Of a DNA stretch of 64,000 nucleotides, positions 2,399 to 14,605 are shown piece after piece. The notes below the pieces were generated by a model. That model did no database searches, had not been told where the DNA came from, and worked only from the letters and a program-made list of their open reading frames with translations. The DNA lies in the NCBI RefSeq assembly GCF_001633165.1, contig NZ_CP015418.1:1674001-1738000 (forward strand). The letters are read 5' to 3'. The stretch's first letter is position 1. Every line of letters begins with the position of its first letter. Position numbers and translations under genes: made by a program. Origin of the DNA: Rhodovulum sulfidophilum DSM 1374 (GTDB lineage Bacteria; Pseudomonadota; Alphaproteobacteria; Rhodobacterales; Rhodobacteraceae).

Positions 2399-4348
2399 TC
2401 AGTCCTTGTTTCTCCTGTTGTCGATGAGCTCCTCGACGACGGAGGGGTCGGCGAGGGTCGAGATGTCGCCGAGCGAGTCGAAGTCGTTCTCGGCGATCTT
2501 GCGCAGGATGCGGCGCATGATCTTGCCCGAGCGGGTCTTGGGAAGGCCCGGCGCCCATTGGATGATATCGGGCTTGGCGATCGGGCCGATCTCGGTGCGG
2601 ACCCATTTCTCCAGCTCCTTGCGGAGCGCGTCGGTCGCCTCGACCCCGTTCATCAGCGTCACATAGGCATAGATGCCCTGACCCTTCAGCTCATGCGGGT
2701 AGCCCACCACCGCGGCCTCGGCGACCGCCTGATGCGCGACCAGCGCCGATTCCACTTCGGCCGTGCCCATCCGGTGGCCCGAGACGTTGATCACGTCATC
2801 GACGCGCCCCGTGACCCAGTAATAGCCGTCGGCATCGCGGCGGCAGCCGTCGCCCGAGAAGTAATAGCCCTTGTAATGGCTGAAATAGGTCTCCTGGAAG
2901 CGGTCGTGATCGCCCCAGATCGTGCGCATCTGCCCGGGCCAGCTGTCCTTGAGGCAGAGGACGCCCTCGGCCTCGGTGCTGTCGATCTCCTTGCCCGATT
3001 CCGGTTCCAGCACCACCGGCTGCACCCCGAAGAAGGGCCTGGTGGCCGAGCCGGGCTTGGTCGCGGTGGCGCCCGGCAGCGGGGTCAGCAGATGGCCGCC
3101 GGTCTCGGTCTGCCACCAGGTGTCGACGATCGGGCAGCGGCCCTTGCCGATATGGGTGTTGTACCATTCCCAGGCCTCGGGATTGATCGGCTCGCCGACC
3201 GAGCCCAGCACCTTGAGCGAGGACAGGTCGTATTTCTCGACCCAGTCGGTGCCCTGGCCCATCAGCGCCCGGATCACGGTGGGGGCGGTGTAGAACTGGT
3301 TGACCTTGAGATCCTGGCAGATCTGCCACATCCGGCCCGCATCCGGGTAGGTCGGCACGCCCTCGAACATCACGGTCGTGGCGCCATTCGCGAGCGGACC
3401 GTAGACGATGTAGCTGTGGCCGGTGACCCAGCCGACATCGGCGGTGCACCAGAACACGTCGCCCTCGTGATAGTCGAAGGTGTATTCATGGGTCATCGCG
3501 GCATAGGCGAGATAGCCGCCCGAGGAATGCACCACGCCCTTGGGCTTGCCGGTCGAACCCGAGGTATAGAGGATGAAGAGCGGATGCTCCGAGGCCAGCT
3601 CGCGCGGCGGGCAGTCGGGGCTGGCATGCTCCATCAGTTGCAACACATCGACATCGCGGCCCTGGATCCAGGAGGTCTGATCGCCGGTATGCTTGACCAC
3701 CATGCAGCGCACCTTGTCCGAGCAGTGCAGGAGTGCTGCATCGGCATTCGATTTCAGCGCGGTCTTGCGCCCGCCGCGCGGGGCGCTGTCGGCGGTGATG
3801 ACGACCTTGGCGCCGCAATCGTTGATCCGGTTGGCCAGCCCGTCGGCCGAGAAGCCAGCGAAGACCACCGAATGGATCGCCCCGATCCGGGCGCAGGCCA
3901 GCATGGCATAGGCGGCCTCGGGGATCATCGGCATGTAGATGACCACGCGGTCGCCCCGCATCACGCCCTGGCTCAGCAGGACATTGGCCATCCGGTTCAC
4001 CTTCTCGTGCAACTCGCGATAGCTGATGTGCCGGATCGGGTCGCCGGGGTCGTCGGGCACGAAGATGATCGCATCCTGGTCGCCCCGTGACCTCAGATGC
4101 CGGTCGATGCAGTTCGAGGCGACGTTCAGCGTGCCGTCCCGGAACCAGTGGATTTCGACCGCGCCCATCTTGAAGGTGCTGCGCTTGACCTCGGTATAGG
4201 GCGTGATCCAGTCGAGCCGCTTCCCATGCGTGCCCCAGAACCCTTCTGGATCCTCGACGGATTCGCGATACATCGCATCGTATTTCGCCGGATCAATATG
4301 CGCGCCCGACACGAAATCCGGGTCCGGCGGGTAAATATGCTCAGTCAT
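2399..4348 (-). CDS. acsA: Acetyl-CoA synthetase (AMP-forming)
   Basis: The 649-residue enzyme makes acetyl-CoA from acetate, ATP and CoA through acetyl-AMP. It has the adenylate-forming P-loop [11 protein letters not shown] at 261-271, the WWQTETGG core motif, and the C-terminal [13 protein letters not shown] in which Lys609 is the catalytic lysine controlled by acetylation in this family. The length is normal for Acs. GGGAG precedes the ATG. It is the last gene of a minus-strand series beginning with a binding protein at 9666 and is 69 bp after the last transporter gene, so it is probably co-transcribed. That links uptake of a short carboxylate to its activation. Propionate may also be a substrate. 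Confidence 0.95.
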
Positions 4349-11915: not shown

Positions 11916-14605
11916 TCGCCTTCGACATGCTCGTCGCGATCTGTCTCGTCTATGTCGCGCTTCTGTTCGGCGTCGCCTTTCTGGCCGAGCGCCGCGGGGC
12001 GCGCGGAAGCAATGGCTGGCTGCGCTCGCCCGTGATCTACACGCTGTCGCTGTCGGTCTACTGCACTGCCTGGACCTTCTACGGCGCTGTCGGCTACGCC
12101 GCGCGCTCGGGGCTTGAATTCGTCACCATCTATCTCGGGCCGACACTGGTCCTGATCGGCTGGTGGTGGACGCTGCGCAAGCTGGTGCGGATCGGCAAGA
12201 CCCAGCGGATCACCTCGATCGCCGACCTGATCTCGTCGCGCTACGGCAAGTCGAACCTGCTGGGGGTCATCGTCACTCTGATCGCGGTGGTGGGCACGAC
12301 GCCCTATATCGCGCTGCAGCTGCAATCGGTGACCCTGTCCTTCGCGGTCTTCGCCGCGGCGGGCACCAACGGGCCCTGGCAGCCCACCGATCTCAAGGCC
12401 GCGGCCTTCAGCGTGGCGGTCGGGCTTGCCGTCTTCACCGTGATCTTCGGCACCCGCAACCTCGATGCCAACGAGCGTCATCACGGCGTGGTCACCGCCA
12501 TCGCGGTCGAGGCCGCGGTCAAGCTGGTCGCGCTGCTGGCGGTCGGGCTGTTCGTGGTCTGGGGGATCGGCGGCGGCGCCCAGGCGACACTGGCGCGGAT
12601 CGAGGCCTCGCCGCTGGCGGGCATGCCGCTTGCGCCCGGCCGCTGGATCGGCCTGACCTTCCTGGCCGGGGCGGCGATCCTGACGCTGCCCCGGATGTTC
12701 CAGGTTCTGGTGGTCGAGAACGAGGACGAGCGTCATCTGGCCACCGCCGCCTGGGCCTTTCCGGCCTATGTCTTCCTGATGAGCCTGTTCGTGGTGCCGA
12801 TCGCCGCGGTCGGTCTGGCCGAGATGCCGCCCGGCGCCAATCCCGATCTCTTCGTGCTGACCCTGCCGCTTGCCCGCGGCCAGGACGGGCTGGCGACGCT
12901 GGCCTTTCTGGGCGGGTTCTCCTCGGCCACCTCGATGGTGATCGTCGCGGCCATCGCGCTCTCGACCATGGTCTCGAACCATATCGTCATGCCGCTTTTC
13001 CTGCACTGGACGCGGGCGGGGGCCACCATGTCGGGCGATGTGCGCAATCTGGTGCTGCGGTCGCGGCGGCTCTCGATCGGGGGCGTCCTGCTTCTGGGCT
13101 ATCTCTATTACCGGCTGACCGGCGGCAGCGAGGCGCTGGCCGAGATCGGGCTGATCTCCTTCGCGGGCGTGGCCCAGTTCCTGCCGGCGCTACTCGGCGG
13201 CATCCTGTGGCGCGGCGCGACCCGGGCCGGGGCGCTGGCCGGGCTGACGCTCGGCTTCGCGCTCTGGGCCTACACGCTGTTTTTGCCGAGCTTCGGCGAG
13301 GGGGCGGTGATGAGCGCGAGCCTTCTGGCGGACGGCCCCTGGGGGATCGGCTGGCTGCGTCCGCAGGGGCTGTTCGGGCTCGACGGGCTCGACCCGCTGG
13401 TCCATGCGGTGGTGTTTTCGATGGGGGTGAATGCGCTGGCCTTCACGCTGGTCTCGATGCTCGATTTTCCCGGCCCGATGGAGCGGCTGCAGGCGGCGCA
13501 ATTCGTCAACGTCTTCGATCACTCTCCCTCCGGGCAGGGCTGGAGCCAGGGCCGCGCCGAGGCCGAGGACCTTTTGCTGATGGCCCAGCGCATCCTTGGC
13601 GCCGACGATGCCCAGAGGCTGTTCCAGCGGGCCGCGGTCGATCAGGGCAAGCAGGGTTATCTGCCCGACACCACCCCCGAATTCCTGCAGCGGCTGGAAC
13701 GCAGGCTGGCCGGCTCGGTCGGCGCGGCCACGGCCCATGCGATGGTCGGGCAGATCGTCGGCCGGTCGTCGGTGTCGGTCGAGGATCTGATGAAGGTCGC
13801 CGACGAGACCGCGCAGATGATGGAATATTCGAGCCAGCTCGAGGCGAAATCCGAAGAGCTGTCCCGCACCGCGCGCCAGCTGCGCGAGGTCAACGAGAAG
13901 CTGACCGAGCTGTCGGTGCAGAAGGACGCCTTTCTCAGCCAGATCAGCCATGAGCTGCGCACGCCGATGACCTCGATCCGGGCCTTTTCAGAGATCCTGA
14001 TGGAAAACGGCGATCTGCCGCCCGAGCGCCTGGTCGATTATTCCCGCATCATCCATCAGGAAAGCATGCGGCTGACCCGGCTGCTCGACGACCTGCTGGA
14101 TCTGTCTGTGCTGGAAAACGGCCAGGTCTCGCTGCATCCGCAGCCGGTGAGCCTGTCCGATCTGCTCGACCGGTCGGTCGCGGCGGCAGGCGGGGGCTCG
14201 GGGCGGGCGCCGATGACGATCCGGCGCGATCCGGCCGCCGAGCGGGTGGCGCTGGTCACCGATGGCGATCGGCTGAGCCAGGTCTTCATCAATCTCGTCA
14301 CCAATGCGCGGAAATACTGCGATGCCGCCGAGCCCGAGCTGACGATTTCGGTGACCGAGGAGGAGGGCGCCGTGGCGGTCGATTTCGTCGATAATGGCAG
14401 CGGCATCCCCGAACGCAGCCAGTCGATCATCTTCGAGAAGTTCTCGCGCCTGACCGACCCGCGCAAGGCCGGAGGCGCCGGGCTGGGGCTCGCGATCTGC
14501 CGCGAGATCATGGGGCGGCTCGGCGGCGCGATCGTCTATCTGCCGGGGCAGGGCGGGGCCGCGTTCCGGGTGACGCTTCCCAGGGGCTGCGCCGAGGCCG
14601 CCTGA
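11912..14605 (+). CDS. Histidine kinase with sodium/solute symporter sensor domain (CrbS-like)
   Basis: An 897-residue inner-membrane sensor kinase. Residues 1 to about 510 are a symporter-type membrane domain with many helices (CTAWTFYGAVGYAA, ITSIADLISSRYGKS, a late GTRNLDANERHHG). A coiled-coil linker covers about 635-672. The kinase core follows: H-box FLSQISHELRTPMTSI with His680, N-box NLVTNARKY, G1 DNGSGIPE and G2 GGAGLGLAICREIMG, all complete. Relatives (CrbS, MxtR) control acsA in response to acetate in other proteobacteria. Sitting next to acsA and a transporter operon here, it probably senses or co-transports a short carboxylate. Confidence 0.9.
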   Translation: MIAFDMLVAICLVYVALLFGVAFLAERRGARGSNGWLRSPVIYTLSLSVYCTAWTFYGAVGYAARSGLEFVTIYLGPTLVLIGWWWTLRKLVRIGKTQRITSIADLISSRYGKSNLLGVIVTLIAVVGTTPYIALQLQSVTLSFAVFAAAGTNGPWQPTDLKAAAFSVAVGLAVFTVIFGTRNLDANERHHGVVTAIAVEAAVKLVALLAVGLFVVWGIGGGAQATLARIEASPLAGMPLAPGRWIGLTFLAGAAILTLPRMFQVLVVENEDERHLATAAWAFPAYVFLMSLFVVPIAAVGLAEMPPGANPDLFVLTLPLARGQDGLATLAFLGGFSSATSMVIVAAIALSTMVSNHIVMPLFLHWTRAGATMSGDVRNLVLRSRRLSIGGVLLLGYLYYRLTGGSEALAEIGLISFAGVAQFLPALLGGILWRGATRAGALAGLTLGFALWAYTLFLPSFGEGAVMSASLLADGPWGIGWLRPQGLFGLDGLDPLVHAVVFSMGVNALAFTLVSMLDFPGPMERLQAAQFVNVFDHSPSGQGWSQGRAEAEDLLLMAQRILGADDAQRLFQRAAVDQGKQGYLPDTTPEFLQRLERRLAGSVGAATAHAMVGQIVGRSSVSVEDLMKVADETAQMMEYSSQLEAKSEELSRTARQLREVNEKLTELSVQKDAFLSQISHELRTPMTSIRAFSEILMENGDLPPERLVDYSRIIHQESMRLTRLLDDLLDLSVLENGQVSLHPQPVSLSDLLDRSVAAAGGGSGRAPMTIRRDPAAERVALVTDGDRLSQVFINLVTNARKYCDAAEPELTISVTEEEGAVAVDFVDNGSGIPERSQSIIFEKFSRLTDPRKAGGAGLGLAICREIMGRLGGAIVYLPGQGGAAFRVTLPRGCAEAA

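Follow-up and report, generated by a model that had tools for sequence, protein, structure and literature searches.

A ScfR-like transcription factor with a kinase-related DHp insertion, encoded beside a single-domain response regulator and an SLC5-type sensor kinase at a conserved importer locus of Rhodovulum sulfidophilum

Sensor kinases in which an SLC5-like sensor is fused to a histidine kinase (SLC5/STAC kinases) are described in the CrbS/CrbR, RpuS/RpuR, and CbrA/CbrB systems, with acs or uptake genes as their targets. CrbS is reported to be a hybrid kinase (PMC5715377) and its partner a LuxR-family protein (PMC9100948), and two-component signaling is described as ending on the aspartate of a response regulator, by His-Asp or His-Asp-His-Asp transfer (PMC12471899). 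The locus considered here occupies positions 2399 to 14605 of the window, i.e., the whole stretch of 64,000 nucleotides of contig NZ_CP015418.1 that was analyzed from the 4.35-Mb genome of Rhodovulum sulfidophilum DSM 1374. It encodes a HAAT-type importer and the acetate--CoA ligase AcsA on the minus strand (leftward) and an ScfR-like transcription factor, a single-domain response regulator, a small membrane protein, and an SLC5-type sensor kinase on the plus strand (rightward). In contrast to the described systems, the kinase has no receiver domain, the aspartate-side protein is a response regulator without an output of its own, and the histidine-side domain sits, in place of a receiver, on the output protein: the transcription factor carries a ~65-residue insertion homologous to the dimerization and histidine phosphotransfer (DHp) domain of the adjoining kinase.

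PRD-containing transcription regulators are phosphorylated on histidine by the phosphotransferase system (PTS); they resemble the present regulator in that they are transcription regulators under such control, which here is only predicted, and differ from it by the PTS chemistry and by an unrelated domain. Spo0B is a DHp phosphotransferase, and in ChpT, Spo0B, and PhyK/MrrA, as described, the DHp domain likewise serves as a phosphate acceptor and not as a kinase, the donor of PhyK being a single-domain response regulator. The single-domain response regulator MrrA is reported to give phosphoryl groups to PhyK, a phosphotransferase (PMC5964349). In ChpT, Spo0B, and PhyK, the DHp protein hands the phosphate to a response regulator, whereas the DHp-like region described here, known from the sequence, is part of a DNA-binding protein.

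The regulator gene (9885 to 11195, plus strand) encodes an XRE-type helix-turn-helix (HTH) domain (residues 1 to 80), the insertion (residues ~118 to 195; 10236 to 10469, plus strand; His140 codon at 10302 to 10304), and an ScfR C-terminal domain with C339, C415, C418, and C423. The insertion site (residues ~122 to 196) is occupied by 74 to 76 residues in the five regulators compared and by 9 to 17 residues in all four canonical ScfR paralogs of the genome. When aligned by hhalign with the DHp domain of the neighboring kinase, the insertion gave a probability of 97.6% (E value, 1.9e-10), its histidine falling on the phospho-acceptor histidine of the kinase, and seven control-region comparisons of the same profile gave at most 0.22%; one further control, in which the kinase DHp was compared with the slice upstream of it, gave 19.7% with five identical columns, the two slices sharing residues 636 to 640. 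When the 101 regulators were searched with a hidden Markov model (HMM) made from the DHp domains of the kinases alone, 100 were matched at an E value of ≤1e-3 (best, 8.8e-19); the four canonical paralogs gave about zero bits. The three top regulator scores with this model came from loci without the importer (L168, L170, and L174), and the DHp segments of the remotest regulators are nearly readable as H-boxes. In the structure model of the window protein, helices span residues 133 to 158 and 164 to 197, with block-mean pLDDT values of 73 to 93 for residues 131 to 190 and of 57 for residues 191 to 200. We consider the insertion almost certainly a DHp domain.

The relationship is closest to the kinase next door. 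Of the 25 HisKA kinases identified in this genome, the one in the same operon matched the regulator DHp profile with an E value of 1.4e-9, and the next one with 2.3e-3. A FastTree analysis (midpoint rooted) was made of 87 short DHp sequences, comprising 41 of the 101 regulators, 26 SLC5 kinases, and 20 other kinases; kinases that were too short or had no recognizable H-box were left out of the sample. The 41 regulator domains formed a single clade (support, 1.0), and a clade of 67 leaves united regulator and SLC5-kinase domains (0.91) apart from the 20 other kinases. Within it, the regulator domains were nested inside the SLC5 kinases at a support of 0.73, with inner nodes down to 0.2. This topology suggests a single capture event in which the regulator would have received its DHp domain from the partner kinase family.

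For the comparison of relatives, a close and a distant set of loci were used. The close set derives from a search with the importer binding protein, in which the best 80 of 586 relatives gave the 80 loci on which the per-locus neighborhood counts rest; the closest named relative at the locus among these is that of Rhodovulum visakhapatnamense, with a binding protein 98% identical. For 83 loci (L001 to L083), 67 regulators passed a filter of 80% coverage and 85% length, two (L001 and L076) were added, and 14 loci were left out. The distant set comes from 289 class-wide genomes, which gave 34 full-length matches to the regulator model, cut at an E value of ≤1e-66; 31 of these (all but those of the own genome, G260, and G117) were fetched as distant alphaproteobacterial loci, three of them from the window's own family.

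In the close set, 68 loci include 7 kb or more of sequence on the side of the regulator; the regulator is present in 64 of these, the response regulator in 63, the kinase in 62, and the complete trio in 62, so their placement beside the importer cannot be ascribed to chance. In the distant set, the response regulator and the SLC5-type kinase both accompany the regulator in 27 of the 31 stretches, and the importer is present in 27. The four distant loci without the full response regulator-kinase pair (L158, L163, L164, and L167, in genomes G001, G080, G211, and G222) belong to genomes that encode a relative of the missing member or members elsewhere, with the kinase and response regulator side by side there in G001, G211, and G222. 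The close loci L030, L033, L034, and L042 (Hoeflea and Cohaesibacter) have the importer without an adjoining regulator, and the regulator-response regulator-kinase unit stands without the importer in L168, L170, L171, and L174, which may show the ancestral role of the signaling unit. Beyond Rhodobacterales, the module was found in Devosia (L076) and in L169, L172, and L173, which belong to one family. Together with the finding that acsA adjoins the importer, after livF, in 35 of the 56 loci whose sequence extends far enough to tell, these counts indicate that the regulator, response regulator, and kinase are near-constant partners, the importer almost so, and acsA optional. The whole-regulator model matches 144 of the 149 Rhodobacterales genomes sampled at an E value of ≤1e-60, the match being split into two pieces in two genomes; the 32 regulator matches from 398 genomes sampled across the phylum all carry the label of the same family or the same class. 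The class-wide matches that follow the 34 have E values of 4e-51 and weaker and were taken as canonical ScfRs, a presumed assignment verified for the own-genome members alone. The preliminary description of this locus had joined the importer to a sensor kinase and an ScfR-like regulator and had called for a neighborhood search, and the conservation of the module, which reaches beyond Rhodobacterales, bears that association out; its tie of acsA to the importer holds as an adjacency that is frequent, not constant.

The residues expected of a phosphotransfer series are conserved in each of the three proteins. The response regulator (11285 to 11653, plus strand; 122 amino acids) consists of a receiver alone, without an output domain (PF00072; E value, 2e-25), and its phospho-acceptor Asp53 and Lys105 are present in 70 of 70 sequences and Thr83 in 69 of 70. 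In the kinase (11912 to 14605, plus strand), which comprises a symporter-like half (residues ~1 to 600), a DHp domain with His680, and a HATPase domain (PF00512 and PF02518), H680, N794, and D827 are kept in 66 of 66. In the regulators, the DHp histidine is found in all 68 close sequences and in 97 of 101 overall; its conservation exceeds that of all but one of the positions from H-4 to H+19. Position H+4 is Ser, Thr, or Asn in 99 of 101 regulators. The acidic residue at H+1 is present in 69 of the 101, compared with 66 of the 66 kinases, and in HisKA domains, within the motif H-E/D-x-x-T/N, this acid is reported to be needed for kinase activity only (PMC3510030). Since the histidine and H+4 are kept, the H+1 acid is relaxed, and no ATP-binding domain (PF02518) appears among the domain matches of the regulator, its DHp domain looks like one of the acceptor or phosphatase type and not like that of a kinase.

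The sensor half of the kinase has no match to PF00474; residues 6 to 613 match the histidine kinase 10ed_A of the PDB (E value, 1.4e-71), which, judging from its length and this match, is presumably an SLC5-type kinase. The kinase had initially been called CrbS type. It shares with CrbS the SLC5-like sensor and the HisKA domain, and we rejected it as a CrbS proper, because a domain search of its 897 residues found no receiver (PF00072), the response regulator is a receiver alone, and there is no LuxR-type partner. The small open reading frame (ORF) cbrX is described just upstream of cbrA; here, the gene for an 86-residue small membrane protein (11655 to 11915, plus strand; hydrophobic by eye, with a subthreshold DUF6611 match only) precedes the kinase gene and overlaps it by 4 bases.

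A candidate target site lies in the divergent intergenic region (9667 to 9884; 218 bases) between the binding-protein and regulator genes. A two-box element, TTTAC-N27-TTTACA, with 32 bp from start to start, is located at 9796 to 9833 (minus strand), upstream of the putative importer promoter TTGCCA-N18-GATACT at 9739 to 9768 (minus strand), which precedes the binding-protein gene in a block conserved among relatives and whose hexamers were picked by eye. The exact pattern TTTAC-N27-TTTAC occurs in 59 of the 74 close intergenic regions and 7 of the 31 distant ones; the close-region count compares with 0 to 2 for other spacings from 20 to 35 and a mean of 0.02 matches in mononucleotide-shuffled close regions. 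When two substitutions are allowed, the element is found in all 74 close and in 22 of the 31 distant regions. Among the importer-free loci, it precedes the regulator gene at one substitution in L168 and L174 and is absent from L170 and L171 at two. The sites of ScfR proteins are reported to consist of two near-identical boxes (PMC10370305); this precedent and the position of the element suggest an activator site, and the two boxes are presumably bound by the ScfR-like regulator.

Together, these observations argue, on balance, for a three-protein signaling unit that would control the importer, and acsA where present, by way of the DHp domain of the regulator. In such a unit, the SLC5-type kinase would sense or cotransport some small solute that is probably an organic acid, autophosphorylate on His680, and then phosphorylate the output-less response regulator on Asp53. 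The response regulator would dock on the DHp domain presumably acquired by the ScfR-like regulator from the SLC5-kinase family and most likely hand its phosphoryl group to His140. Phosphorylation of His140 would alter the dimer or tetramer of the regulator and, hence, how its HTH domains bind the boxes 32 bp apart, the regulator probably being an activator at the importer promoter. A functional link between the response regulator and the regulator is highly probable, and the phosphotransfer step to His140 has about an even chance. Similarly balanced is our expectation of a histidine-terminated relay, from kinase His to response regulator Asp to transcription-factor His, in which the phosphate would end on the DNA-binding protein and the DHp domain would have been captured from its own kinase. 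If true, this would show how a metabolic regulator already in place can be coupled to a two-component circuit and would give a role to one class of output-less response regulators; it concerns a regulator of 144 of 149 sampled Rhodobacterales genomes and a conserved importer. Among the literature matches listed, no title or abstract brings ScfR together with HisKA or presents a transcription factor as a final histidine acceptor, with one ScfR paper (PMC4560284) that may mention them, and HisKA is annotated on none of the 120 homologues among the matches listed.

Several observations weigh against this reading. The Pfam HisKA model (PF00512) matches 14 of 65 regulator members at an E value of ≤10 (best, 0.004), the window protein not being among them; the general model is too weak to call the insertion. 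The top five Foldseek rows for the isolated domain are histidine kinases, yet with E values of 0.02 to 0.09, and VIA-align does not set kinases apart from unrelated helical hairpins. Structure searches alone are insufficient to decide on chance similarity between helical segments, and this was rejected on the profile comparisons, the ranking of the genome's kinases, the comparison with canonical paralogs, and the tree. The histidine is replaced by Phe in L169, L172, and L173 (one family) and by Gln in L167, and the domain is kept in all four. Loci L012 and L028 encode a regulator with the histidine and have neither the response regulator nor the kinase beside it. The two-box element is missing from 9 of the 31 distant loci even at two substitutions, a stringency at which other spacings match as well (up to 35 of 74 close and 11 of 31 distant regions), and the own genome contains one exact match, that in the window, as does a backward control pattern.

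The histidine-less regulators bear on whether the response regulator docks without transferring phosphate, acting as an allosteric ligand of the regulator DHp domain, or whether this domain serves as a phosphatase or decoy for the response regulator, with His140 kept for the shape that it gives to the docking site or for the geometry of the phosphatase reaction. DHp domains are docking sites for response regulators, the Ser, Thr, or Asn at H+4 fits the motif H-E/D-x-x-T/N, and the persistence of the domain without its histidine in 4 of 101 regulators keeps this explanation alive; these four loci also indicate that transfer is not essential everywhere. Either a transfer step would have been lost in them, or docking alone would be enough. 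The conservation of the histidine above nearly all of its surroundings weighs against docking without transfer. In addition, all four histidine-less cases lie in rearranged loci, with the response regulator-kinase pair beyond acsA in L169, L172, and L173 and on another contig for L167 (genome G222), a loose link since the kinase and/or the response regulator has moved in L158, L163, and L164 too, and the histidine is kept there. We regard docking without transfer as possible, though rather unlikely.

The DHp helices could also be purely structural, serving only to dimerize the regulator, with the kinase-response regulator pair acting on another target. The domain is indeed described as a dimerization domain (PMC12471899), and such a role would leave without explanation the conserved histidine, the closeness of the regulator DHp to the neighboring kinase over the other kinases of the genome, and the co-occurrence with the response regulator and kinase, so that we consider it quite improbable.

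The ScfR ancestry of the regulator is clear from HTH_3 (E value, 1.4e-11) and ScfRs (PF09856; 2.2e-14) matches, both above the cutoff, and all 65 regulator members match both models at an E value of ≤10. Like PccR, RamB, and MccR/PrpR, it combines an XRE HTH domain and PF09856 with four Fe-S-type cysteines; unlike them, it has the DHp insertion, lacks part of the coenzyme A (CoA) pocket in the Rhodobacterales type, and stands beside a kinase and a response regulator. The motif C-X2-C-X4-C plus a fourth cysteine, ligating [4Fe4S], is described for ScfR/PrpR (PMC6765138); as residues, C339, C415, C418, and C423 are invariant in 65 regulators and each is present in 100 of 101 overall. The C-terminal half aligns with PrpR. 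From the central domain, which in PrpR contributes to the CoA pocket, the window type lacks ~85 residues. PrpR residues H319, R338, and K347 are reported as CoA contacts (PMC6765138), and all three alignable positions are replaced in the window regulator, the pairing being read from the printed alignment. The longer homologues of L001 and L076 retain the central domain and the His, Arg, and Lys contacts and may respond to acyl-CoA; 28 of the 31 distant regulators and 3 of 70 close ones have at least 460 amino acids. The ScfR protein had initially been held to read acyl-CoA. For the window type we rejected this as a claim, and the protein is better described as ScfR derived than as a demonstrated acyl-CoA regulator. 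A member of the ScfR network that clusters with a two-component system, Pden_1785, is mentioned and left unpursued by Kremer et al. in 2023 (PMC10370305) and presumably belongs to the same type.

The parallel arrangement offered in the preliminary description, in which a CrbS-like kinase reads external acid, an ScfR-type protein reads intracellular acyl-CoA, and both regulate the importer and acsA, is the least probable of the alternatives, since the pocket is incomplete and its alignable contacts are changed, the kinase has no receiver, and the output-less response regulator would be left without a target, despite the ScfR C-terminal domain and Fe-S cysteines, the adjacency of acsA in 35 of 56 loci, and the possibility that dual input holds in L001 and L076. 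Linked control by a real module stands from that description; what its two parallel sensors missed is the DHp domain in the regulator, which would provide a direct link from the kinase and response regulator.

The importer consists, from the intergenic region leftward, of a HAAT-type (Peripla_BP_6) binding protein (8311 to 9666, minus strand; PF13458 E value, 6e-74), a LivH-type permease (7171 to 8202, minus strand; PF02653), a LivM-type permease (5952 to 7166, minus strand; PF02653), a LivG-type ATPase (5184 to 5939, minus strand; PF00005 and PF12399), and a LivF-type ATPase (4418 to 5173, minus strand; PF00005), the start of the last being inferred, as the listed ORF extends to 5320. The binding protein has a twin-arginine-like N terminus, which we take to be an export motif. 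The component families and their order are those of the LivHMGF and UrtABCDE importers of the HAAT family, and the window importer falls below the curated cutoffs shown for urea and branched-chain amino acids: scores against the urea equivalog models were 236.7 (cutoff, 304.1) for UrtD, 198.6 (285.8) for UrtE, 189.4 (250.3) for UrtB, and 73.4 (492.75) for UrtA, and the proteins were below the cutoffs of the Liv equivalog models also. The nearest binding proteins in the PDB (4maa, 3n0w, and 3i09) were matched without a ligand, and plasmid relatives of the binding protein (31 to 37% identity) have different neighbor genes. A lactate importer of the HAAT family is reportedly present in Phaeobacter; the paper found on the subject, PMC9007349, gives no statement of such an importer. 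For Ruegeria pomeroyi, an acetate transporter is mentioned (PMC11374999) and the SSS symporter SPO1810 is listed as putative for acetate (PMC9870897), and the word acetate does not occur in the main text of PMC10130141; none of the three could be mapped to this locus.

The adjacency of acsA (2399 to 4348, minus strand; AMP-forming acetate--CoA ligase, TIGR02188 score of 1005.5 bits against a cutoff of 724.95) favors a carboxylate as the importer substrate. Acetate, suggested earlier, was not borne out. A second acsA in the genome (G000:C1:1128911-1130842; L186, L188:6873-8846) shares 96% identity with that of the window at the protein level and 95.6% at the DNA level, and the product of the gene after it resembles, by eye, an SSS symporter. 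The likeness of the two copies is limited to the coding sequence, consistent with a recent duplication or gene conversion. Several contigs of relatives end near the acsA start (e.g., L004, L005, L006, and L047), as a near-identical repeat could cause.

The gene content, order, and strands first listed for the locus agree with the domain and profile matches of the window proteins. A minus-strand ORF (9780 to 11264) overlapping the regulator gene has no Pfam match. A TTGACA hexamer and one resembling GATAGT were seen by eye at 11196 to 11284 (plus strand), before the response regulator gene, and suggest a separate promoter for the response regulator, membrane protein, and kinase genes. To the left of acsA lie an amidohydrolase fragment (54 to 476) and pieces matching IS4/5-type transposase models (1196 to 1549 and 1570 to 1959). 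On the other side, a divergent FadB/FadJ-like enoyl-CoA hydratase/3-hydroxyacyl-CoA dehydrogenase, far under the curated cutoffs of those models, is encoded at 17515 to 19626 (plus strand). Directly 3' of the kinase gene, at 14701 to 15885 (plus strand), is a gene for a FliMN_C-domain protein (PF01052; E value, 4e-6), a relative of which is found on the same strand in 54 of 68 loci.

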